From Flavobacterium sp. 11 (GTDB lineage Bacteria; Bacteroidota; Bacteroidia; Flavobacteriales; Flavobacteriaceae), in NCBI RefSeq assembly GCF_002754315.1, contig NZ_PEFE01000001.1, positions 992,001 through 1,056,000 on the forward strand: 64,000 nt of DNA, read 5' to 3'. Both the position numbers and the translations under genes were made by a program. This document shows, piece by piece, positions 10,308 to 64,000 of the stretch (positions are counted from its first letter, which is position 1; the number at the start of each line of letters is the position of its first letter). Under the pieces are notes generated by a model. The model did not search any database and was not told where the DNA came from. It worked only from the letters and a program-made list of their open reading frames with translations.

Positions 10308-10955
10308 TTTTTCACCGTACGCTAAATCTCCAGCATCTCCCAATCCTGGTACAATATAACTGTGCTCGTTTAGTTTTTCATCCAAAGCAGCAACCCAAAG
10401 ATGACAGTTTTCCGGCAAATGTTCTTCAAGATAAGCAATACCTTCCGGAGCGGCAATCACAACAGCAATGTGAATTTCTTTTGGCGTCCCTCTCTCCATT
10501 AATTTATTGAAAACGGCAACAATAGATTGACCGGTTGCAAGCATGGGATCTACTAATACTAGGTTTTTTTCATTTATAGCAGCAATGGCTTGGTATTGCA
10601 CTAAAATATCAAAATAATCGTCATTGTTTGGATGGTGTCTAAAGGCGGAAATGAAACCATTTTCGGCATTATCAAAATAATTCAGAAACCCTAAATGTAA
10701 GGGTAAACCAGCGCGTAAAATGGAACATAAAACCAATTGATCCTTAATCTCAGTTGTTGTTTTTATACCTAAAGGAGTTTGGATTTCGACACTTTTGTAG
10801 TGTAATTTTTTACTTAATTCATACGCCATTATTTCACCAATACGTTCAATATTTCTTCGGAAACGCATGCTGTCATTGTGAACATTTACATTTCGTATTT
10901 GTCCTAAAAAATGATTTAGGATGCTATTGTCTTCTGATAAATAATGGATTTGCAT
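10302..10955 (-). CDS. upp: Uracil phosphoribosyltransferase
   Basis: The product is 217 residues. It has the PRPP-binding loop LVDPMLATGQSIVAVF and the uracil-binding C-terminus IVPGLGDAGDLAYG, both diagnostic for Upp. The reaction converts uracil and PRPP to UMP for pyrimidine salvage. The gene is transcribed divergently from DUF4254 across about 87 bases and convergently with the DUF6427-like gene. Confidence 0.95.
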   Translation of the reverse strand: MQIHYLSEDNSILNHFLGQIRNVNVHNDSMRFRRNIERIGEIMAYELSKKLHYKSVEIQTPLGIKTTTEIKDQLVLCSILRAGLPLHLGFLNYFDNAENGFISAFRHHPNNDDYFDILVQYQAIAAINEKNLVLVDPMLATGQSIVAVFNKLMERGTPKEIHIAVVIAAPEGIAYLEEHLPENCHLWVAALDEKLNEHSYIVPGLGDAGDLAYGEKL

Positions 10956-11015
10956 GTTTTTATTTTTGCTATTAAACTTATAAATATTTTTATAATCTAT
11001 AAAAGTATAAAAAAG

Positions 11016-11023
11016 TATCTTTG
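11016..11023 (+). promoter_or_regulatory. Candidate -7 promoter box for DUF4254/GT9 operon
   Basis: TATCTTTG matches TAnnTTTG and lies 20 bases before the ATG at 11043. It also argues against the longer open frame that begins at 10944. Confidence 0.4.
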
Positions 11024-11042
11024 TCCTTTAAAATATAAAGAT

Positions 11043-11648
11043 ATGTTTTCAAAATTAGCTTATTCAGTATTCGAACAAAGTATTAAAGATTATCATCAGT
11101 TTGATAATGTAGACCAACCGATTAATAACCCTTTCCCAAAAGATAAATTTGAGCATTTGTTGTATCACAAAAACTGGATTGATACCGTTCAATGGCATTT
11201 TGAGGACATTATTCGTGATCCAAACATTGATCCTGTTGCTGCTTTGACTTTGAAAAGAAGAATCGATGCTTCTAATCAAGAACGCACTGATATGGTGGAA
11301 TATATTGACAGTTATTTTCTTCAAAAATACAGTCATGTAAAAGTAAAAGAGAATGCAAAAATCAACTCAGAAAGTCCGGCTTGGGCTTTTGACAGATTGT
11401 CTATTTTGGCATTGAAAATTTATCACATGCAAGAAGAAGCTACTCGTGCCGAAGCTTCACAAGATCATAGAGATAAATGTCAAGCAAAGTTGAATATTTT
11501 ATTGGAACAAAGAACAGATTTGTCTTTGGCTATCGATGATTTATTGACAGACATTGAAAATGGAGATAAATTCATGAAAGTGTACAAGCAAATGAAAATG
11601 TACAACGATGATGATTTGAATCCTGTTTTGTATCAAAACAAGAAGTAA
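11043..11648 (+). CDS. DUF4254 family protein
   Basis: The product is 201 residues starting MFSKLAYSVFEQSIKDYH, helical in character, with no signal peptide or membrane segment. It matches the Bacteroidota family DUF4254, almost always found just upstream of a heptosyltransferase-like gene, as here (three bases apart). That linkage suggests a role in LPS or glycolipid biosynthesis, but no biochemical function is established. The open frame extends upstream to 10944; the ATG at 11043 is chosen because it follows a -7 box and gives the usual N-terminus. Confidence 0.88.
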   Translation: MFSKLAYSVFEQSIKDYHQFDNVDQPINNPFPKDKFEHLLYHKNWIDTVQWHFEDIIRDPNIDPVAALTLKRRIDASNQERTDMVEYIDSYFLQKYSHVKVKENAKINSESPAWAFDRLSILALKIYHMQEEATRAEASQDHRDKCQAKLNILLEQRTDLSLAIDDLLTDIENGDKFMKVYKQMKMYNDDDLNPVLYQNKK

Positions 11649-11651
11649 TTT

Positions 11652-12707
11652 TTGACAACCTCAAAATTGTCAAATAAAATAAAGCATATAGCCGTCATGA
11701 GACTTTCCGCAATGGGAGATGTCGCCATGACGGTTCCTGTTTTACGCACTTTTGTAAACCAGCATCCGGAAATTAAAATCACAATGATTTCCAGACCTTT
11801 TTTCAAACCTTTTTTTGAAGGGATTCCTAATATTACTTTTTTTGCTTTCGATGAAAAAGAACGACACAAAGGATTTTTGGGGTTGTTGCGTTTGTTCCAA
11901 GATTTAAAAGGTTTAAATATTGATGCTTTTGCCGATTTACACAACGTGTTGCGCTCTAAAATTATCCGAAACCTTTTTGCTTTAAGCGAAAAAAAAACAG
12001 CTTCGGTTGATAAGGGAAGAGCAGAAAAAAAAGCATTAACACAACCCGAAAATAAAGTGTTCCAGCAACTGCCAACAATGTTTGAAAGACACGTAAAAGT
12101 TTTTGAACAACTCGGTTTTACGGTTGATTTATCATCCCGAAGTGTCGGGACAGTTTTTCCTGAAAAAGCAGTTTTGAGTCCGGAAATTCTAGCGGTAATT
12201 GGAGAAAAAAGTAAAAAACTAATAGGAATAGCTCCTTTTGCACAATACGATTCTAAAGTATATCCGCTGGATTTGATGCAGGAAGTCATCAATCAATTAT
12301 CGAAAAATTTAGACTATAAAATTTTACTTTTTGGTGGTGGAAAAAAGGAAATCGAAATCCTGGATTCGTTTTCTGCTAATAAAGAAAACGTCATCAATAT
12401 GGCGGGCAAAATTAAATTCCAACAGGAATTGCAACTCATCAGTAATCTGGATGTAATGCTTTCCATGGATTCCGGAAATGCCCATATAGCAGCTATGCTT
12501 GGGGTTAAAGTCATTTCACTTTGGGGCGCGACGCATCCGTATGCGGGATTTTCACCGTTTAATCAGCCTTTAGAAAATGCGTTGGTTTCGGATAGAAATC
12601 AGTTTCCAAAACTACCCACTTCAGTTTATGGAAATAAAAAAGTAGAAGGATATGAAGATGTCATGCGAACGATTACTGTCGACTCTATTATAAAGGTTTT
12701 AAATTAG
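11652..12707 (+). CDS. Glycosyltransferase family 9 (heptosyltransferase-like)
   Basis: The product is about 351 residues with the N-terminal motif RLSAMGDVAMTVPVLRTF (the acceptor-side loop of ADP-heptose:LPS heptosyltransferases) and the C-terminal donor-binding MDSGNAHIAAMLG followed by LWGATHPYAGF. The start is uncertain: a TTG at 11652, three bases after DUF4254, fits translational coupling; the first in-frame ATG at 11697 would remove residues expected before the motif. A small perfect palindrome (TCCCGA-AGTG-TCGGGA) lies inside the gene at 12135-12150 and resembles an intergenic repeat captured in coding sequence. The 3' end has a degenerate partial duplicate at about 16609-16660. Confidence 0.9.
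   Translation: MTTSKLSNKIKHIAVMRLSAMGDVAMTVPVLRTFVNQHPEIKITMISRPFFKPFFEGIPNITFFAFDEKERHKGFLGLLRLFQDLKGLNIDAFADLHNVLRSKIIRNLFALSEKKTASVDKGRAEKKALTQPENKVFQQLPTMFERHVKVFEQLGFTVDLSSRSVGTVFPEKAVLSPEILAVIGEKSKKLIGIAPFAQYDSKVYPLDLMQEVINQLSKNLDYKILLFGGGKKEIEILDSFSANKENVINMAGKIKFQQELQLISNLDVMLSMDSGNAHIAAMLGVKVISLWGATHPYAGFSPFNQPLENALVSDRNQFPKLPTSVYGNKKVEGYEDVMRTITVDSIIKVLN
12135..12150. repeat. Palindrome inside the GT9 gene
   Basis: TCCCGA, a four-base loop AGTG, then TCGGGA. It encodes part of DLSSRSVGT in frame. The sequence style matches short palindromic units that normally sit between genes in flavobacterial genomes, so it may be a tolerated insertion in a surface loop. Confidence 0.4.
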
Positions 12708-12954
12708 TGTAAACAAGTGAGTTTAATCAAATTCATAGTTAGGTTTATTGTTTTTTTAGCTATTTATTTGAAGGAATAATTTTATAAATTATTTAACAAA
12801 TAGGTTTTAAATTATTAGTATTAAAAATACTACTTTGGCTTGCTGTGAGTTAGACCTTACAAATCAAGTTTCAATTAGGAGAAAGAGGCGCTTTTTTAAT
12901 CAAGTTGCTTTTAGAAATCCTGAAATGCTAATACAATAAAAATAGAAACTATTT

Positions 12955-46020: not shown

Positions 46021-47145
46021 TTAATTTGGTATAATTTTGAGTATTCCTTTTCCTTCAACGCCCATATAAATATAGCCATCCGGACCTTGCACCACATTAC
46101 GCACACGACCAATATCGGTTGCAATTTTTTGTCTGCCTATAACTTCATTGCCTTTCAATTTTAGCAATTCAAGATATTGGAATTTTAAAGAACCAACCAA
46201 TAAATGTCCTTTCCAGTCTGGATACTTATCACCGGTCACAAAAGTCATTCCACTTGGAGCGATAGAAGGCAACCAATAATAAATAGGTTTTTCAATACCT
46301 GGTTTTTCGTTTTCTTTACTAATGGTTGTTCCGTCATAATCGATTCCATAAGTAACAATAGGCCATCCGTAATTGACTCCTTTTTTTATGATGTTGATTT
46401 CATCGCCACCCTGAGGACCGTGTTCATGTGCCCAAATTGCTCCTGTTACGGGGTTTTTTGCCATTCCTTGCGGGTTGCGATTCCCATAAGTGTAAATAGC
46501 TTCTTTGGCTCCGGGCTGACCGACAAACGGATTGTCTTTAGGAATGCTTCCGTCGTCATTTAAACGGTATATTTTTCCACCATCGCGTTTAATGTCTTGC
46601 GGATTTACAAAATGTTCGCCACGCTCACCAACAGAGAAATACAAATAACCATCGTTGTCAAATACAATTCGGGAACCAAAATGCTGTCCTTTTGTAGTGT
46701 TGGGCGTAGCTTTATAAAGCGATTCGATTTGTGTCAGACTTCCGTCCAATAATTTTGCTCGAATAAGTTTAGTGTTACCGCCGGTACCTTCACCTTCATC
46801 GGAAGCATACGTCATATAAATCCAACCATTTTTAGCATAATCAGGATGTAAAACGATATCTAACAATCCGCCTTGTCCACGAGAATATACTTTGGGAACA
46901 TTTTTGATTTCGGTTTTTATACCGTTTTTGATATGATACAGAATACCACTTTTTTCCGTAACTAACATTGTTCCGTCTGGCAACCAAGTCATTCCCCACG
47001 GAATTGCAATATCTGAAGCTACGGTTTCAATGGTATAATTTTTCACCTCGTCTTTTATAGAAATATCATTTGGCTTTACTTGTGCTTCGCAACTGAAAGA
47101 GAGAAATGAAAGAATCGAGAGGGAGACTATTATTATTTTTTTCAT
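46021..47145 (-). CDS. PQQ-dependent aldose sugar dehydrogenase-like protein
   Basis: The product is 374 residues from the ATG at 47145: lipoprotein-type signal (ILSFLSFSCEAQ), then the six-bladed propeller of the soluble glucose dehydrogenase/sorbosone dehydrogenase family. Motifs seen: IPWGMTWLPDGTMLVTEKSG, GQGGLLDIVLHPDYA, YGNRNPQGMAKNPVTGAIW and HEHGPQGGDEINII. It would oxidise an aldose in the periplasm and pass electrons to the linked cytochrome c. PQQ synthesis genes are not in the window. The longer frame from 47247 adds 34 residues with no function I can see. Confidence 0.92.
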   Translation of the reverse strand: MKKIIIVSLSILSFLSFSCEAQVKPNDISIKDEVKNYTIETVASDIAIPWGMTWLPDGTMLVTEKSGILYHIKNGIKTEIKNVPKVYSRGQGGLLDIVLHPDYAKNGWIYMTYASDEGEGTGGNTKLIRAKLLDGSLTQIESLYKATPNTTKGQHFGSRIVFDNDGYLYFSVGERGEHFVNPQDIKRDGGKIYRLNDDGSIPKDNPFVGQPGAKEAIYTYGNRNPQGMAKNPVTGAIWAHEHGPQGGDEINIIKKGVNYGWPIVTYGIDYDGTTISKENEKPGIEKPIYYWLPSIAPSGMTFVTGDKYPDWKGHLLVGSLKFQYLELLKLKGNEVIGRQKIATDIGRVRNVVQGPDGYIYMGVEGKGILKIIPN

Positions 47146-56805: not shown

Positions 56806-57860
56806 GAGATTTGTAATTTTAAGATTACCGTGTATTCCATTTGAAGGGTATCTTCATTAGTAGACAATTCATACTTGCCCGGATAAATCAAATCGAGTCT
56901 TCGGCGGGTATTGATTAAACCAATTCCGTTGCTTTCTTCTTTGCTTAGGGTTTGATTTTCAAATATAGAATTGCGGACTTCAATTTGGAGAAATTTTTCG
57001 GACTGTTCAATTCCGATGTAAATATAGCTTGGATAAATACCGCTTATTCCGTGTTTATAGGCATTTTCGACAAAAGGTAAAAATAGCATTGGCGCTACTT
57101 CGACATCCTTTACATTGGTAGGTTTTTCAAATATTACCTGCACTTTATCTGTTATTCTGAGTTCCATCAATTTAAGATAATCGGTTACAAAACCTATTTC
57201 TTTGCTTAGCGTTGTCAGGTTGTTTTTAGTATCATAAAGCACATAGCGCATCATGTGTGACAACGTATATATTGCTTCCCGTGCCGGTTGGTTTTCGGTT
57301 CCCGCCAAAGCATAAATACTGTTTAGAATATTGAAAAAAAAGTGAGGATTGATTTGGGATTTCAGGAATGATAATTCCGAAGTGACTTTTTCTTTTTCAA
57401 GATTTTGTCGCACTTGGGTTTCCACTTGCAGTTTTTTGGCAACACTTATGACTGTGCTGGCTCCTACAATTAATAAGGTTATTATGATTTCGCTTAAATT
57501 TGATATCAAAGCACCTTGCAAGTTATCTTTTTTCGAAATTTTAAAATGCTGATTTAAAATAGTATCAAGGTTTATGAGTGAGTTGAAAGTGTCACTAATA
57601 TACAGAACCGACACTATAAGAATGCATATTGCAATAAAGAAAAAGCCGTTCTTGCCTTGAAATAAAAGAGTAGGGATGATTATTTTATAGGTAAGATAAA
57701 ATACGGAAATCCATAAAATATACATGAAGATTTGTTTGATCCAAAATTCCATTGGAAAACTAATATTCATGTATAGCGGCATACTTTGAACTATAAGCAA
57801 CCCAAGAAAGAGTAAAGCTTTTGAAAAAATCGAAATGTCTTTGACTGAAAATGGTTTCAT
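56802..57860 (-). CDS. LytS/YehU-type sensor histidine kinase
   Basis: The product is 352 residues. The N-terminal half has four hydrophobic segments; the C-terminal half is the His_kinase domain with LSFLKSQINPHFFFNILNSI (phospho-His) and the ATPase motifs PFVENAYKHGI and GIGLINTRRRLDLIYPG. The frame extends to a TTG at 57905, but the ATG at 57860 (MKPFSVKDISIF) gives a usual start. It lacks a large periplasmic sensor, so the signal may be sensed in or near the membrane. Its stop overlaps the response regulator start. Confidence 0.92.
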   Translation of the reverse strand: MKPFSVKDISIFSKALLFLGLLIVQSMPLYMNISFPMEFWIKQIFMYILWISVFYLTYKIIIPTLLFQGKNGFFFIAICILIVSVLYISDTFNSLINLDTILNQHFKISKKDNLQGALISNLSEIIITLLIVGASTVISVAKKLQVETQVRQNLEKEKVTSELSFLKSQINPHFFFNILNSIYALAGTENQPAREAIYTLSHMMRYVLYDTKNNLTTLSKEIGFVTDYLKLMELRITDKVQVIFEKPTNVKDVEVAPMLFLPFVENAYKHGISGIYPSYIYIGIEQSEKFLQIEVRNSIFENQTLSKEESNGIGLINTRRRLDLIYPGKYELSTNEDTLQMEYTVILKLQIS

Positions 57861-58061
57861 CCGGTACAATTTAAAAATAAATATACGCAATAAATTAAGT
57901 CCCAAAATGAGAATCGGCAGTTTCCTATAGAATATCGACAGATAGCCTTAGTTCATCTGAGAAAAAATAAATGTATTGAGATAAATAGTTGAAAAGTACA
58001 AATTTAATCTGGTCAACGAATTTGTGGAAAACATAAAAAGCAATTGCAAATTTTCAGCCAT

Positions 58062-58092
58062 AAAAAAACCCGACATTACTGTCGGGTTTTTT
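58062..58092 (-). terminator. Terminator of the HxlR-linked operon
   Basis: AAAACCCGACA and TGTCGGGTTTT form the stem; a T run follows on the minus strand. It lies 30 bases beyond the last gene of the operon. Confidence 0.9.
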
Positions 58093-58121
58093 ATCCAAGA
58101 ATCATCGAATTTATGAATCAA

Positions 58122-58817
58122 TCATTTCTTCGTTACTTTCAAATCTTTAAAATATCCTACTGTTCCTATTTCAACCCAAAGTGCAATACTGCCAGTTTTA
58201 GAAGTCCCCAGCATTTTAGTAACGATAAATGAAGGCGATTTTTGGTTATTGATGTATAAAACTGCCTTTTCATCTTGAAACTCAATACGCACATCAATCC
58301 ATTCGTTTAAACCAATATCAGCATAGGTTTCATATAAACCGTTCGCTTCTTTTCTCAAGCGGCCAAAGGTATTTCCCGGATAGGAAAAATACTGAATGGT
58401 GTGGTTGCGCCTCAATTGATCATCGGCTCTCCCATTACTTGGACGAAGATAAATAGCATCAAAATTTTTATTCTCTTGATTTACGCGGTATGCTACGCCA
58501 ATAAATCCGCGCGCAGCAGGAAAAGGAGAATTTTCCATGATTCGGCTTAACATTTTAACTTCAATCGTCCCGTTCTCCATAGCAACATTCGTTAATTTAA
58601 CGTATGTAGGACCATCCGTTGAAGTGTCTATGTTTTTTTCGTCAAAAGGAAAGGCAATTAAATCACGCTCCACTTTTAAGACTTTAACACCGTCCATATT
58701 TACGATTTCTGCTTTGGTATTTACAGCTTCAAATTCATGTTTATCCCAGGTGAATTTTTGAGCAAATAGTCCCGTGATTTGTAAAATAAGGGTACTCAAT
58801 AAAAGTGCTTTTTTCAT
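58122..58817 (-). CDS. Secreted concanavalin-like (LamG/DUF1080-like) protein
   Basis: The product is 231 residues from the ATG at 58817, with signal peptide MKKALLLSTLILQITGLFAQ. The rest is a beta-sandwich pattern: NGTIEVKMLSR, RGFIGVAYRVNQENKNFDAI, EWIDVRIEFQDEKAVLYINN and the final SIALWVEIGTVGYFKDLKV. This matches the general shape of LamG and DUF1080 proteins, which bind or cut glycans. The longer frame from 58865 is not used because it overlaps the end of the hydrolase gene and precedes the signal peptide. It is third in the operon. Confidence 0.85.
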   Translation of the reverse strand: MKKALLLSTLILQITGLFAQKFTWDKHEFEAVNTKAEIVNMDGVKVLKVERDLIAFPFDEKNIDTSTDGPTYVKLTNVAMENGTIEVKMLSRIMENSPFPAARGFIGVAYRVNQENKNFDAIYLRPSNGRADDQLRRNHTIQYFSYPGNTFGRLRKEANGLYETYADIGLNEWIDVRIEFQDEKAVLYINNQKSPSFIVTKMLGTSKTGSIALWVEIGTVGYFKDLKVTKK

Positions 58818-58828
58818 TTTGAACGGAT

Positions 58829-59692
58829 TTAGTTTTCTTTTATAAACGGAGCGATACTTGCCCAAGTGGCGTTAAAATTTACTATAAAAGCAGGATGACC
58901 AGCATTTGGAATAATCGCTAACTGATGATTGGGAATTAGCAATGCGGCATTTAAAACATTTTGTACGGAGTTGCCCTCATCTCGGTCGCCCGCCATCACT
59001 AAAACGGGACATTGAATGGTGCTTAGTAATTCGGTGCCTACGGTAAGTTGGCTATAACAAGTCGCAATTTGCTGAAACACCTCTTTCAGTCGATTCGGTT
59101 CGGGCATTAAGTCGCGTTGTTGTGCCCAAAATTCCGCATCCATTTCCATCGCTTGATTGAAGTTAAAACTAAAATCCCTTAATCCGGGATATAAAATACC
59201 GGCACCTATAACAATCATTTTTTTAACTTTATCAGGATACATCGAGCCAAATTTATAAGCGGTAAATCCGCCATCACTAAATCCAAGAATCATTACTTTT
59301 TCTGAAGTTGCTTTTTGGATTACTGCCAGTACATCATTCGCTCTTTGTTCTAATGTCAATGGTTCGGTTCCTATTTCCGATTTCCCATGCCCACGGGTAG
59401 AAACAGCGATTATCTGAAAATCAACTGAAAGACTATCTATGAATTTTGCCATTTCTACGTTTGAACCAAACAATCCGCCATGTAATACTACAATGGGTTG
59501 CCCTTTGCCGTATACTTCATAGTAAATTTTGGCATTTTTAGATTGTACATAATGCCCTGCCTGTGGATTATTACCATAGGGAATGGTATTAATTACATTT
59601 GGTGGCTGCATAAAATGTCGTAACGGTTTTTGTGCAAACGCGTCACAACAAAAAACTACATTTACTAAAAATACCAGTATTAATTTTTTCAT
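58829..59692 (-). CDS. Exported alpha/beta hydrolase
   Basis: The product is 287 residues. A signal peptide (VFLVNVVFCCDAFAQ) is followed by the hydrolase fold: oxyanion loop VVLHGGLFGSN, nucleophile elbow ILGFSDGGFT (Ser), acid in MAGDRDEGNSV and His in NAGHPAFIV. The substrate is unknown. It starts 12 bases after the DinB-like gene and lies 11 bases before the concanavalin-like gene, so all three are one operon of exported proteins, divergent from the HxlR regulator. Confidence 0.92.
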   Translation of the reverse strand: MKKLILVFLVNVVFCCDAFAQKPLRHFMQPPNVINTIPYGNNPQAGHYVQSKNAKIYYEVYGKGQPIVVLHGGLFGSNVEMAKFIDSLSVDFQIIAVSTRGHGKSEIGTEPLTLEQRANDVLAVIQKATSEKVMILGFSDGGFTAYKFGSMYPDKVKKMIVIGAGILYPGLRDFSFNFNQAMEMDAEFWAQQRDLMPEPNRLKEVFQQIATCYSQLTVGTELLSTIQCPVLVMAGDRDEGNSVQNVLNAALLIPNHQLAIIPNAGHPAFIVNFNATWASIAPFIKEN

Positions 59693-59704
59693 TTTATAAA
59701 TAAA

Positions 59705-60226
59705 TTAAAATAATTTTTCAGCGGGAGGTGTAGCGCCCACTAATCTCAAATAAACAGTAGTTTGTGCTCTATGATGGGTTTGATGTTCAAAACACTTGTT
59801 TAAAACCTGCTCTCTGTTCATATCAAATTGTCCGAACAATTTAATAGGCTCCGAAAGTTTTGCATTAGGATATTTTTTGATAGCATTAATAGCAAAATCA
59901 TAGGAAGCCATTACTTTGGCGGTAACGCTTGCTTTGTCCTCATCACCGGATTTTTCTAAATCCCCAAAACCTACTGGGGGTTTCTCATCGGTTGCGGAAC
60001 CCACAAAACCATATATTGCATCGCTCAAGTGTAAAACTTGACCTGAGAAAGAACGCATTTCTTTTGTTGGTTTAAAGGAATAGCCGCTTTCAGGCATTGC
60101 ATCCAGATATTCTTTAGTATAGGCTTTGGCTCTTTCCCAGTCTTTAACGATATCAGCTGTTGTTGTTTGTGCATTTAAATTGCTCATAGATAAAAATACG
60201 GTCAGAAGTAATACAATCTTTTTCAT
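59705..60226 (-). CDS. Exported DinB-like (DinB/YfiT fold) protein
   Basis: The product is 173 residues with a clear signal peptide (LLLTVFLSMSNLNAQ). The DinB four-helix fold has its metal-binding histidines in GQVLHLSDAIYG and FEHQTHHRAQTTVYLR. DinB-fold proteins are mostly thiol transferases or hydrolases in the cytoplasm; an export signal is notable. It is the first gene of the operon and is transcribed divergently from HxlR. Confidence 0.9.
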   Translation of the reverse strand: MKKIVLLLTVFLSMSNLNAQTTTADIVKDWERAKAYTKEYLDAMPESGYSFKPTKEMRSFSGQVLHLSDAIYGFVGSATDEKPPVGFGDLEKSGDEDKASVTAKVMASYDFAINAIKKYPNAKLSEPIKLFGQFDMNREQVLNKCFEHQTHHRAQTTVYLRLVGATPPAEKLF

Positions 60227-60250
60227 GTTTCTTGTTTTTATAGTTTTTTA

Positions 60251-60258
60251 CAAATTTA
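60251..60258 (-). promoter_or_regulatory. Candidate -7 box for the DinB operon
   Basis: On the minus strand it reads TAAATTTG, a match to TAnnTTTG, about 25 bases before the DinB-like start. Confidence 0.4.
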
Positions 60259-60270
60259 CAATCATTAGTG

Positions 60271-60278
60271 TATATTTG
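60271..60278 (+). promoter_or_regulatory. Candidate -7 box for the hxlR-type gene
   Basis: TATATTTG matches TAnnTTTG, 48 bases before the HxlR start, and abuts a GTAACC half-site at 60278-60283. Confidence 0.4.
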
Positions 60279-60299
60279 TAACCAACAAATTAAATACCG

Positions 60300-60315
60300 G
60301 TAACCAGTAGGTTAC
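60300..60315. promoter_or_regulatory. Palindrome, candidate HxlR operator
   Basis: GTAACC-AGTA-GGTTAC is a perfect inverted repeat 11 bases before the regulator start codon; an extra GTAACC half-site lies at 60278-60283, overlapping the end of the -7 box. The position fits autorepression and control of the divergent operon. It is not matched to a known operator. Confidence 0.45.
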
Positions 60316-60325
60316 TACAAATTAT

Positions 60326-60670
60326 ATGAGATATATAGAAAACCCTTATGATTGTCCTGTAACAAGAGCCATGTCCATTTTTGGCGGTAAATGGAAGCCT
60401 ATAATATTGAATTGTATTGGTGAAAGTTCATTGCGGTTCGGGAAATTGAACCAATTAATGCCTGCTATTTCTAACAAAGTGCTTTCTAATGAATTAAAAG
60501 AATTAGAGACTTTAGGATTAATTGAACGAAAAGAGTTTAAAGAAAGCCCGCAAAGAGTAGAATATACATTGTCCGATTCGGGGAAAAGTTTGATGCCTGT
60601 TTTGCATGAAATCGCAAGCTGGGGTAATTCGAATGAAGCAAAAAAGATTGTTACGGAAATGGTTAAGTAG
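60326..60670 (+). CDS. HxlR family winged-helix regulator
   Basis: The product is 114 residues with the family start NPYDCPVTRAMSIFGGKWKP, the helix-turn-helix SLRFGKLNQLMPAISNKVLS and the wing with ETLGLIERKEF and PQRVEYTLSDSG. The single conserved Cys in YDCPV is the one that senses electrophiles or oxidants in related proteins. It is divergent from the DinB-hydrolase-concanavalin operon, which is its likely target. Confidence 0.95.
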   Translation: MRYIENPYDCPVTRAMSIFGGKWKPIILNCIGESSLRFGKLNQLMPAISNKVLSNELKELETLGLIERKEFKESPQRVEYTLSDSGKSLMPVLHEIASWGNSNEAKKIVTEMVK

Positions 60671-60723
60671 AAAATCTCATCTATAAATTACGTTAAACAA
60701 ATTCTTTAAAATTTCAATCCCTG

Positions 60724-60796
60724 AAAAATCAGGAATCCCTAATTTCTGTGCATAAAAAAGCCCGACATTGCTGTCAGGCTTTACAGCTCCCTTTCT
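60724..60796. repeat. Direct repeat, copy 1 (contains a terminator)
   Basis: This 73-base unit is about 90 percent identical by eye to 61857-61931. The two copies flank the sugar isomerase-like gene. It includes the terminator stem AGCCCGACA / TGTCAGGCT (60759-60780). Confidence 0.75.
60752..60783 (-). terminator. Terminator of the isomerase-like gene
   Basis: The stem AGCCCGACA / TGTCAGGCT has one G-T pair and is followed by a T run on the minus strand. It serves the gene ending at 60818. Confidence 0.85.
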
Positions 60797-60817
60797 AAGA
60801 AAAAAGCCTATATAAAT

Positions 60818-61771
60818 TTAAAGCGACTTTAAATAATCGATACTTTTTTTCAATGCTATTTCAGGTGATTGTACCATATCTTGTTCCACGAAGAAATGCT
60901 CCACACCATTTTGTTTAGCAGCAGTAAGTATTGTAGGCAAATCTAGCACACCTTCACCACACGAAGTCATATATGGAAAAAGACTGATCCATTGTGATGC
61001 ATCGCCACCATCTCCTGCAAATCTTTTAGCTTCTTTCATGTCTTTTATATGGACCATTTTATACCTGTCTTTGTGCTTTTTGAATAATTCAACAGGATCT
61101 GCTCCGCCGGCTATTGTCCAATAAAGATCCATTTCAAAATAAACCAAGCTAGGGTCAGTTTGGTCAAAAATAATATTTAACGGTATTACGCCATTCACAT
61201 TGTTTAAACCATAACCATGATTGTGATAGGCAAAACGAATTCCTTCTTTCTTGGCTTCAGCACCAATCGAGTTGAATTTTTCTGCTACTCGTTTATAATC
61301 GTCCAAGTTTTTTCTTTCAGCATCTGGAATGGAAGGTAGTACCACATATTTTGCACCGATTAAATTAGCGGCTTCCGCCAATGGGCCCATATTATTTGAT
61401 AGTGTATCTAAATCAGTATGCATGGCAGGAATACTAATGCCATTTGATTTCGCTGCTTTAAAAAAATCAGCAGCAGTTTTGTTGAAGAAGCCGCTCCCTT
61501 TGAACCCTAGTTGAGGTGTAACAGCATTCCATGAAGCTTTTGCTTTTTCAGTACTGAATTCATAAGGACCGAAACATTCCACTTCTTTGTATCCCATTTT
61601 AGCTAACATAGCAAAAGCACCATCAAAGTCATTCTCTAACATTTTTGGGATAGAGAATAAACCTAAGCCTGCTTTATTGATTAATGGAGTTTTGGCAAAC
61701 AGTTCATTTGCGTTTACTAAAGAGGCCACAGAAAACAGGGCAGTACTTTGAAGAAATTGACGACGTTTCAT
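60818..61771 (-). CDS. Tat-exported sugar phosphate isomerase/epimerase-like TIM barrel protein
   Basis: The product is 317 residues. A Tat-like signal (MKRRQFLQSTALFSVASLVN) leads into a xylose isomerase-like TIM barrel: MLAKMGYKEVECFGPYEF, GISIPAMHTDL, FAYHNHGYGL, YFEMDLYWTIAGG, MVHIKDMKEA and FFVEQDMV. The acidic and His metal ligands are in HNHG, EMDL and VHIKD. Exported members take part in 3-keto-sugar or inositol metabolism. It is flanked by 75-base direct repeats. Confidence 0.92.
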   Translation of the reverse strand: MKRRQFLQSTALFSVASLVNANELFAKTPLINKAGLGLFSIPKMLENDFDGAFAMLAKMGYKEVECFGPYEFSTEKAKASWNAVTPQLGFKGSGFFNKTAADFFKAAKSNGISIPAMHTDLDTLSNNMGPLAEAANLIGAKYVVLPSIPDAERKNLDDYKRVAEKFNSIGAEAKKEGIRFAYHNHGYGLNNVNGVIPLNIIFDQTDPSLVYFEMDLYWTIAGGADPVELFKKHKDRYKMVHIKDMKEAKRFAGDGGDASQWISLFPYMTSCGEGVLDLPTILTAAKQNGVEHFFVEQDMVQSPEIALKKSIDYLKSL

Positions 61772-61856
61772 AGTAAATAATTTAGAACCTCTAATTTATC
61801 AATTATTTGGTAATAAAAATTATTTTATATAAAATGGATGTCTTTTTTAGAAATTT

Positions 61857-61931
61857 AAAAATCAGGAATCACTAATTTCTGTACATAAAAAAAGCCCGAC
61901 ATTGCTGTCAGGCTTTTAAAGCTCCCTCTCT
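61857..61931. repeat. Direct repeat, copy 2 with orphan terminator
   Basis: The copy carries the stem AAAAGCCCGACA / TGTCAGGCTTTT (61890-61917) with its T run on the minus strand, but no minus-strand gene lies before it. It is the second copy of 60724-60796. Confidence 0.75.
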
Positions 61932-62148
61932 TGGGCTCGCCCCTCGGGACAGATTAGCAGTTAAATCAAGACTTGACGTTGTTTTACTTTTATTATGATG
62001 GCCAATTTGATGCCTATTAATAATTAATTTTAATGTTTTTATACAAATGTAATAATGTTCTTCCTTGATAATTTATTATTCATTCATTATTTTTTATGTA
62101 GATTATAATTGAGTAGTCGATTACCCATTAATAATATATTTATTATAG

Positions 62149-62177
62149 TTGCAATTTGGAAAGAATGAATATTTTTG
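62149..62177 (+). promoter_or_regulatory. Candidate promoter of the AAA ATPase gene
   Basis: TTG at 62149-62151 and TATTTTTG at 62170-62177 are 18 bases apart, a good fit to the Bacteroidota -33/-7 consensus; the start codon follows 46 bases later. Confidence 0.55.
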
Positions 62178-62223
62178 TCCTGTCCGTATATGTATTTAAT
62201 AAAATGGACAATATTTTTTTATT

Positions 62224-63327
62224 ATGGATGATGATTTAGATTTAGAAGGAACTGGTAGTGGTTTAAGTCAAGATGAATTAACTGAATTGTTTAATTTGCA
62301 TGAAGTGCATGACTTTACTGAGTATGATGATACATCAATTACAACAACTAAATGCATATCACCTGAGCCTAAAATAGAACTAAAAAAAATTGATACAACT
62401 TTTTCAAACGCATTTGAACTATACGAGCAGAAAGTTGAAGTTATCCCAAAGTTATTGCATCCATTTTTGCAAAAAGTAGGCTTAGCATCTTTAGTAGGAA
62501 CTTCAGATTCTGGTAAATCAACATTTCTAAGACAATTAAGCCTGTCTGTTGCTTTAAATCTTAAAACTTTTTTAGGCTTCAGTCTAGAGAGTAAAAGCAA
62601 TAAAGTTATTTATGTGAGTACGGAAGATGATTCGAATGCAATAAGCTTTTCTATTAGAAAACAGGTGGACTATTTACTAAAAGAAAACAAATCAATCGAT
62701 TTGAATCTATTGAATAATCTTCAATTTATTTTTGAAACTGACAACCTCTTAGAGAAGTTAAGTAAAGAATTAGAAAATGAATCTGTTGACTTGATAGTTG
62801 TAGACGCATTTACAGACGTTTTTAGCAAAGAATTAAATGCTAACATACAAGTTAGACAGTTTTTGAATGATTACGATAAATTAGCAAAGAAACACGATTG
62901 TTTGATATTATTTCTTCACCACATAGGTAAAAATACTTTACGGTCAGCTCCTAGTAAGGATAGTATTATAGGAAGCCAAGCATTCGAAGCAAAGATGAGG
63001 GTGGTACTTGAGTTAAGACCCAATCGATTCAAAATTAATCATAAAGATTTATGGGTGTTAAAAGCTAACTTTCTAGATGCTACTCAAAAAGCAAAAAGCC
63101 ATGTTATAGAAATGAATGAAAATCTTATTTTCGAAGCAACTGGACTAAGAAGTGAAAAGACTCAAACTTCTAAATCAGCTAACCCTCTATTAAAAGATAA
63201 AATATTAGAATTAAAAAGTCAAGGCTTATCTTATAGAAAAATTGAAGATGTTCTTAAAGAAACAGATCTTAAAATTGGAAAGTCAGCTATTGCAGAAATT
63301 ATAAATAAAGCCTCAAAAACTAAATAA
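62224..63327 (+). CDS. RepA-like AAA family ATPase
   Basis: The product is 367 residues. After an acidic N-terminus (MDDDLDLEGTGSGL) the RecA-like domain has Walker A GTSDSGKST (residues about 94-102), Walker B DLIVVDAFTD and the FLHHIGKNTL segment, as in hexameric RepA/AAA_25 proteins. The C-terminal 60 residues look like a helix-turn-helix (LKSQGLSYRKIEDVL). Such genes are usual in plasmids and integrative elements of Bacteroidota. It lies upstream of a type III restriction subunit gene, at the start of what seems to be an acquired segment. Confidence 0.85.
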   Translation: MDDDLDLEGTGSGLSQDELTELFNLHEVHDFTEYDDTSITTTKCISPEPKIELKKIDTTFSNAFELYEQKVEVIPKLLHPFLQKVGLASLVGTSDSGKSTFLRQLSLSVALNLKTFLGFSLESKSNKVIYVSTEDDSNAISFSIRKQVDYLLKENKSIDLNLLNNLQFIFETDNLLEKLSKELENESVDLIVVDAFTDVFSKELNANIQVRQFLNDYDKLAKKHDCLILFLHHIGKNTLRSAPSKDSIIGSQAFEAKMRVVLELRPNRFKINHKDLWVLKANFLDATQKAKSHVIEMNENLIFEATGLRSEKTQTSKSANPLLKDKILELKSQGLSYRKIEDVLKETDLKIGKSAIAEIINKASKTK

Positions 63328-63465
63328 AGGGGCCTCTGATAAAATATATCTTTAGATTTATTATGGGTTGTGATTTTTAATATATCCCCAAACCTTTTGG
63401 GCTGTTACTTTTTAGGAATCATAATTGAATTTAAGTTTTTTACAATTTAATATTTGGATAAACTG

Positions 63466-63473
63466 TATATTTG
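63466..63473 (+). promoter_or_regulatory. Candidate -7 box for the res gene
   Basis: TATATTTG matches TAnnTTTG, 33 bases before the ATG at 63507. The -33 element is unclear. Confidence 0.4.
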
Positions 63474-63506
63474 ATTTAATTATAATAAAATAATATTTTT
63501 CTGTCA

Positions 63507-64000
63507 ATGGAGTTACAATTAGAAAGCCTTAAATACCAAGACTTAGCCGTTCAATCCGTAGTAAAACTTTTTGAGGGAACAGAAAAAAACACATTTGATA
63601 ATGCTTGTTTTGAAGGTATTCGTTCTAATTTTAGCAAACTTACTCGAGATGAAATTGAAACGAACATTAAAAACATATTGACTGAAAATGGTATAAATGA
63701 AGTTGTAGCCAAACTTTCAAATGATAAAGATATTTGTGTGGAAATGGAAACTGGAACAGGTAAAACGCTTGTTTACGTTAAAACCATTTATGAATTATTC
63801 AAACATCACGGCTTTACCAAGTTTATAATTTTAGTGCCGTCGGTAGCCATTCGTCAAAACATTATTGGAACCTTCAAATCATTTGATAAACAATTAGAGA
63901 GTATCTATGGTTTTAAGCCAAATGCTTTTGAATATGATAGTAAAAAACTTCAGAAAGTAACGCAATTTATAGAAGACCAGCATCCACAAGTGATGATAAT
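63507..64000 (+). CDS. Type III restriction enzyme Res subunit (3' end outside window)
   Basis: The 164 visible residues start MELQLESLKYQDLAVQSVVK and contain Walker A as METGTGKTLVYV and motif Ia-like FIILVPSVAIRQNI, the pattern of type III restriction endonuclease helicase subunits. The frame is open to the end of the window. Res translocates or switches on DNA with ATP and cuts when paired with a Mod methyltransferase, whose gene is not in view. It is probably part of a defence cassette on an island. Confidence 0.9.
   Translation, partial: MELQLESLKYQDLAVQSVVKLFEGTEKNTFDNACFEGIRSNFSKLTRDEIETNIKNILTENGINEVVAKLSNDKDICVEMETGTGKTLVYVKTIYELFKHHGFTKFIILVPSVAIRQNIIGTFKSFDKQLESIYGFKPNAFEYDSKKLQKVTQFIEDQHPQVMI

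Follow-up and report, generated by a model that had tools for sequence, protein, structure and literature searches.

Two nearly identical terminators flank a single isomerase-like gene in the genome of Flavobacterium sp. 11, both pointing to the same strand; one stands behind the gene, whereas the other has no gene in front of it. The question raised by this locus, which lies near the right edge of the window (the whole stretch of 64,000 nucleotides that was analysed), is where such a pair came from and what the orphan member of it records. The features from which any answer has to start are the following.

60724..60796, minus strand: left repeat, made of flank, terminator and an 11-nt tRNA-Asn tail, with a hairpin fold
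60755..60782, minus strand: terminator hairpin of the left copy (pattern match and fold)
61857..61931, minus strand: right repeat, made of flank, terminator and the start of a tRNA-Asn tail
61889..61916, minus strand: terminator hairpin of the right ('orphan') copy (pattern scan, core pattern match and fold)
58063..58090, minus strand: third, weaker terminator copy, without tRNA tail (core pattern match)
60818..61771, minus strand: isomerase-like gene, 317 aa, AP_endonuc_2 TIM barrel (Pfam PF01261, E 3.3e-16)
60326..60670, plus strand: HxlR-type regulator, left neighbour (Pfam PF01638)

An initial sequence-only reading of this DNA had held that the repeats are alike well past the stem-loop and represent a true duplication, which the alignment bears out: the two copies are 92% identical over 75 aligned columns, and the likeness takes in about 30 nt ahead of the hairpin and about 15 nt behind it. 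Both hairpins fold on the minus strand with a GCAA loop and a U run, in agreement with the orientation originally assigned to them, with fold z-scores of -2.8 and -3.1 and equally good shuffles in 1 of 200 for each. A terminator pattern scan of positions 57000-64000 listed the right hairpin and missed the left one, and terminator-like sites in that interval were not enriched (5, against a shuffle mean of 4.2). The left terminator does lie behind the isomerase-like gene, as had been noticed, and the right one is indeed without an upstream minus-strand gene, the nearest minus-strand ORF to its right (L003:10198-10479, counting ORFs of 70 aa or more that are free of overlap with a longer plus-strand gene) being 6.3 kb off. 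Comparison of the repeats and the gene between them with Rfam gave best E-values of 0.036 and 0.099, under the gathering scores and for unrelated families.

A dispersed terminator or REP-like element, found by chance on both sides of the gene, would be one way to account for the pair, and a similar terminator with its flank does occur at a non-tRNA locus of another genome (L012 in G003). Nevertheless, a query of positions 60700-60820 against the 3.76-Mb single-contig genome returned the two repeats and no other place (E <= 0.001), and the terminator core, allowing up to two mismatches over the whole genome, matched at three places, 58063, 60755 and 61889, all within 3.9 kb (a fourth row of this search was the 58063 hairpin on the opposite strand). 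The many dispersed copies that the sequence-only reading had named as evidence against itself were not found. With the core matches confined to one locus, a dispersed repeat was rejected for this genome, and as an explanation of the pair it is very improbable.

Two features were absent from that reading, the terminator copy at 58063 and a stretch of tRNA tail behind both repeat hairpins. The second of them links the repeats to the DNA lying to their right, whose features are listed here.

61921..61939, minus strand: 19-nt scar of the tRNA-Asn 3' end, left attachment end of an island (exact matches here and at an intact tRNA-Asn)
60786..60796, minus strand: putative remnant of the tRNA-Asn 3' end, 10 of 11 nt (11-mer search of the window)
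61940..64000, no strand assigned: left part of the island, which runs past the window edge as far as G000:C1:1066617 (genome G019 has a homologous island whose ends are the same)
62224..63327, plus strand: AAA_25 ATPase gene of the island (Pfam PF13481)
63507..64000, plus strand: island gene for a type III restriction enzyme-like helicase, leaving the window (Pfam ResIII and DEAD)

The 19-mer, searched with up to one mismatch in the 3.76-Mb genome, was found at two places, both exact: contig position 1053921 and G000:C1:1066618. The latter belongs to an intact tRNA-Asn(GTT) predicted by ARAGORN at G000:C1:1066618-1066692 (L003:16618-16692), 12.7 kb to the right of the right repeat and beyond the window, inside whose 64 kb the same program found no tRNA. 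The tail of the left copy is short, 11 nt with one mismatch, compared with the 19 exact nt of the right one, and the two tails are in register. Within the 64-kb window the 11-mer, again with up to one mismatch, matched behind the left and right repeat hairpins and nowhere else; 0.24 matches were expected, and 2 of 100 shuffles reached at least two.

A tyrosine integrase of 401 aa (L003:15189-16394), with Phage_integrase, Arm and SAM-like domains, adjoins the intact tRNA-Asn. Since a copy of the tRNA 3' end lies at the far end and this integrase beside the intact tRNA, the DNA from 61.94 kb on is, as judged from its sequence, an island inserted in the 3' end of tRNA-Asn, and a relative holds a different occupant at the site. 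The GC content falls from about 61.75 kb. Besides the two genes listed, the island contains a DUF3871 gene, an AAA_24 gene and five ORFs without a Pfam family. The restriction-like helicase scored 199.8 bits against NCBIfam NF012027, short of the cut-off of 564; its gene has 701 aa for a model of 986 positions and may be truncated, and an IS21-type transposase pair follows directly behind it (G000:C1:1057773-1060075, L003 7773-10075). Relaxase and conjugation families did not appear in a Pfam scan of 12 non-overlapping island ORFs of at least 70 aa, 5 of which match no family, and a classification as ICE or IME, which calls for such genes among those 12, was set aside. An integron cassette was likewise discarded, the island integrase reaching 30.9 bits against TIGR02249, where the cut-off is 265. 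The island came to stand between the right terminator and the tRNA gene, and this is what made the terminator an 'orphan'. It had been supposed that an upstream gene was lost when DNA from about 61.93 kb was replaced; this holds in so far as foreign DNA starts near there, but the tRNA-Asn was moved by 12.7 kb and neither lost nor replaced.

Related genomes offered a wider view of this site. Flavobacterium yafengii (L022, same contig as G242) matches the left side up to 61908 with 96.6% identity over 2.2 kb, apart from one extra gene at 59.7 kb, and the match resumes at 74575 (extended window numbering) with 92.9%; a HigB-HigA-like pair is found in place of the island. With flanks that match and a HigBA-like pair inside, the island is inserted DNA, and the occupant of its site varies. 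The genome G019 carries the homologous island with the same left end, the same tRNA and the same tRNA scar, and the ends of its island have 88 bp in common, 86 of them identical, comprising 19 nt of tRNA tail, the terminator and the flank; the island ends of G178 share 129 bp at 91.5%. In G358 the scar includes 27 nt of the tRNA tail. With 75% over 64 columns, the scar terminator of G146 differs from the one next to the tRNA, which shows that terminator duplication is not universal; the scars of G146 and G273 have a tRNA-Arg gene within about 0.2 kb. In F. gawalongense (G368) an intact tRNA-Asn at C44:114474, a scar near 132224 and isomerase copies at 141.5 kb and 162.5 kb form an arrangement that looks like a stack of insertions.

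The genus was also surveyed more widely. Related integrases (E <= 1e-80) numbered 28 in 23 of 199 genomes, own genome included, and 20 of the 28 loci contain a tRNA (7 Asn, 6 Met, 3 Asp, 3 Ser and 1 Ala), with 8 lacking one, these loci being taken with about 1.5 kb of flank and ending in some cases at contig edges, some of the tRNA-less 8 among them. At 69% identity or more, seven of nine integrases stand beside tRNA-Asn, and the other two (G070 and one of three matches in G146) contain a stop. A pattern for the right-copy terminator followed by the tRNA-Asn tail gave 16 matches, which fall in 15 of 398 genomes, own included, a figure for the combination, since the pattern required the tail, and not for the terminator elsewhere. 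Outside the own genome, 13 of 15 such matches abut an intact tRNA-Asn, and the remaining ones, in G080 and one of two in G009, are scars: an intact tRNA-Asn lies about 0.4 kb from the G009 one and about 1 kb from the G080 one. A scar pattern consisting of the 19-mer and then a non-A base was present in 15 of 398 genomes, own included, although it overlooks longer tails such as that of G358.

Other small units were observed at tRNA-Asn genes of the genus. Six loci, L192 (G324), L196 (G009), L197 (G180), L198 (G341), L202 (G004) and L204 (G284), hold a small gene for a GIY-YIG nuclease, with an intact tRNA-Asn on one side of it and a 3' fragment of tRNA-Asn on the other; the genes encode 94-149 aa, all six match Pfam PF01541, and the unit measures about 0.4 kb. 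In the tRNA-Asn 3' fragment beside the gene, an 18-bp palindrome (TCCCGATAGCTATCGGGA or near) replaces AAC, and the whole looks like a homing gene equipped with the 3' end of its own target. This palindrome, which interrupts tRNA scars of other species, is absent from the present genome at up to one mismatch. Elsewhere, at L133 (G036) 10700-12825, a single 371-aa gene lies between two intact tRNA-Asn genes, with 75% DNA identity to window positions 46021-47084.

The segment between the repeats is sparse: it has no integrase, and its ORFs of at least 60 aa are the isomerase and one overlapping 61-aa frame. The resemblance of the isomerase to IolE stays under the threshold. Within the genus the gene is rare, being present in 5 of 398 genomes, own included (E <= 1e-60), and a relative with 91% identity in Lutibacter oceani indicates that it was probably transferred between genera. 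In strain AED the isomerase comes after a susC/susD pair, without full repeats. G358 (L138, L139) has two isomerase copies far apart, both after the same gene end, one of them followed by a half repeat consisting of a tRNA-tail-like stretch and half a terminator. A general association of the isomerase with tRNAs was examined and rejected: of 75 distant homologue loci fetched, 35 were scanned, and two of them had a tRNA, in both cases more than 3 kb away.

Both repeats flank the isomerase in this genome and, at the same places, in F. yafengii; the right copy of the latter breaks off within its hairpin and lacks the tRNA tail. The repeat-isomerase-repeat arrangement would then probably predate the split between the two. 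The alternative proposal of a tandem duplication that had collapsed fares badly, at least as a recent event, which is unlikely given that the F. yafengii repeats occupy the same two positions, the right one being broken within its hairpin. The history of the left copy is nonetheless not that of a simple old orthologue: its identity of 94.5% to its own right copy, against 90.4% to the F. yafengii left copy, is a poor fit to such a descent, and the left copies of both genomes are grouped by small indel-type markers and by nothing else. On the HxlR side of F. gawalongense a single repeat is followed by other DNA and no isomerase, so a one-repeat state, which may be earlier or later than the other, exists; the sequence-only reading had suggested that the repeats might let the gene excise. 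Four degraded repeat copies were also seen in relatives (L022 7863-7914, L024 7866-7913, L025 7788-7838 and, downstream of the gene, L113), in which the likeness ends inside the hairpin, near its tip.

Altogether, we consider it quite probable that the locus is an integration hotspot at tRNA-Asn and that the repeats are old scars of mobile DNA landing there. Judging from the relatives, an incoming element would bring a substitute tRNA 3' end with its own terminator, leaving the tRNA complete, and the terminator and tRNA tail that stood there before would be pushed outwards as a scar. The first insertion may have duplicated the tRNA tail alone, and later elements of the same family, arriving in succession, would each leave their own terminator and tail. 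The right repeat would be one of these scars, orphaned since the tRNA-Asn moved away, and the left repeat an older one of the same kind, which now lies by chance behind the isomerase and could serve as its terminator. For the isomerase segment itself we lean, by a small measure, towards its having come from an earlier tRNA-Asn element, as a remnant or as cargo, with the left repeat as the older scar. The duplicated island ends of G019 and G178, which have the same make-up of flank, terminator and tRNA tail, argue for the left copy as a scar; on the other side stand its tail of 11 nt with one mismatch, the isomerase segment without integrase, and the broken, tail-less right copy of F. yafengii. 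The terminator and a similar flank are moreover known without tRNA tail, at 58063 and at L012 in G003, a 3-kb locus in which no tRNA lies and where the likeness is 94% over 53 nt; the repeat must therefore have other ways of spreading open to it as well.

The chief rival for the isomerase segment is a local duplication, of the terminator segment alone or together with the isomerase, followed by shuffling between the copies, in which case the island would be real but unrelated to the left copy. Three terminator copies stand within 3.9 kb with no further ones found in the genome, and within it the left copy agrees with the right one at 94.5%, all of which suits this explanation. So does F. gawalongense. 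On the stop-codon side of one of its isomerases stands a hybrid copy that combines the 58063 and 60724 types; the window segment between these two types is missing at the hybrid, and the missing segment is found about 16-20 kb away, beside the second isomerase copy. From this hybrid it follows that recombination between terminator copies was also involved. Duplication of this sort does not, however, sit well with the left-copy tRNA tail being in register with the right one, or with the duplicated ends of the G019 and G178 islands, and we regard it as possible but unlikely.

A small element without integrase, formed by the isomerase gene and its two ends and moved in trans by the tRNA-Asn integrases of resident islands, would explain why a 1.1-kb unit has a terminator and a tRNA tail at both ends and why two copies exist in F. 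gawalongense and two in G358; the gene also has a tRNA-Met next to it in G275 and, in Lutibacter oceani, a tRNA-Arg at a distance of 0.6 kb. Such mobility is hard to reconcile with strain AED, where the gene follows susC/susD without full repeats, with the two G358 copies following the same gene end, with the lack of a tRNA tail behind the gene in G275 (by eye, over 330 nt), and with the scarcity and distance of tRNAs at the distant homologue loci scanned, which together make it improbable. A wider version, in which single genes with ends of tRNA tail plus terminator would be cassettes moved in trans at Flavobacterium tRNA-Asn, the isomerase unit being one of them and the hairpins their preferred break points, is a speculation that we find slightly more doubtful still.

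Taking the repeats as scars of a tRNA-Asn hotspot, an 'orphan' terminator can be regarded as fossil evidence: the tRNA 3' end and terminator that remain after mobile DNA lands. Such scars could give the order of insertions at a hotspot, and also the edges of an island when a window stops short of the tRNA. The cargo of the hotspot comprises restriction-like genes here, a toxin-antitoxin-like pair in F. yafengii and, in addition, a sugar-enzyme-like gene.

Tandem accretion of genomic islands at tRNA genes, which results in stacked elements with copies of the tRNA 3' end between them, is the closest general precedent. As in those cases, several elements would share one tRNA here with 3'-end copies between them, but at this locus the terminator, too, belongs to the repeated ends, and a single gene is all that one segment retains. 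Events of this kind are already known, and the terminator within the repeated end together with the one-gene segment between scars is a modest addition; among the literature matches listed (titles and beginnings of abstracts), this locus is undescribed. Riemerella anatipestifer belongs to the same class as Flavobacterium, Flavobacteriia. Its 10K genomic island, for which integration and excision were reported, has a tyrosine integrase beside tRNA-Arg and 53-bp attL/attR repeats (PMC6764341), and it resembles the present case both in the integrase by a tRNA and, by eye, in a repeat ending in a terminator-like hairpin. It differs in its tRNA-Arg and in being, in the available portion of that report, one island with no single-gene segment between the repeats, in contrast with the tRNA-Asn and the proposed stack of scars here (PMC6764341). 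In the unrelated Klebsiella pneumoniae, asparagine tDNAs have also been described as integration hotspots (PMC4891358), a likeness of the hotspot gene and not of the elements. Closer to the present locus, an island at tRNA-Asn has been reported in F. psychrophilum, in the same genus and at the same kind of tRNA (PMC8400371).
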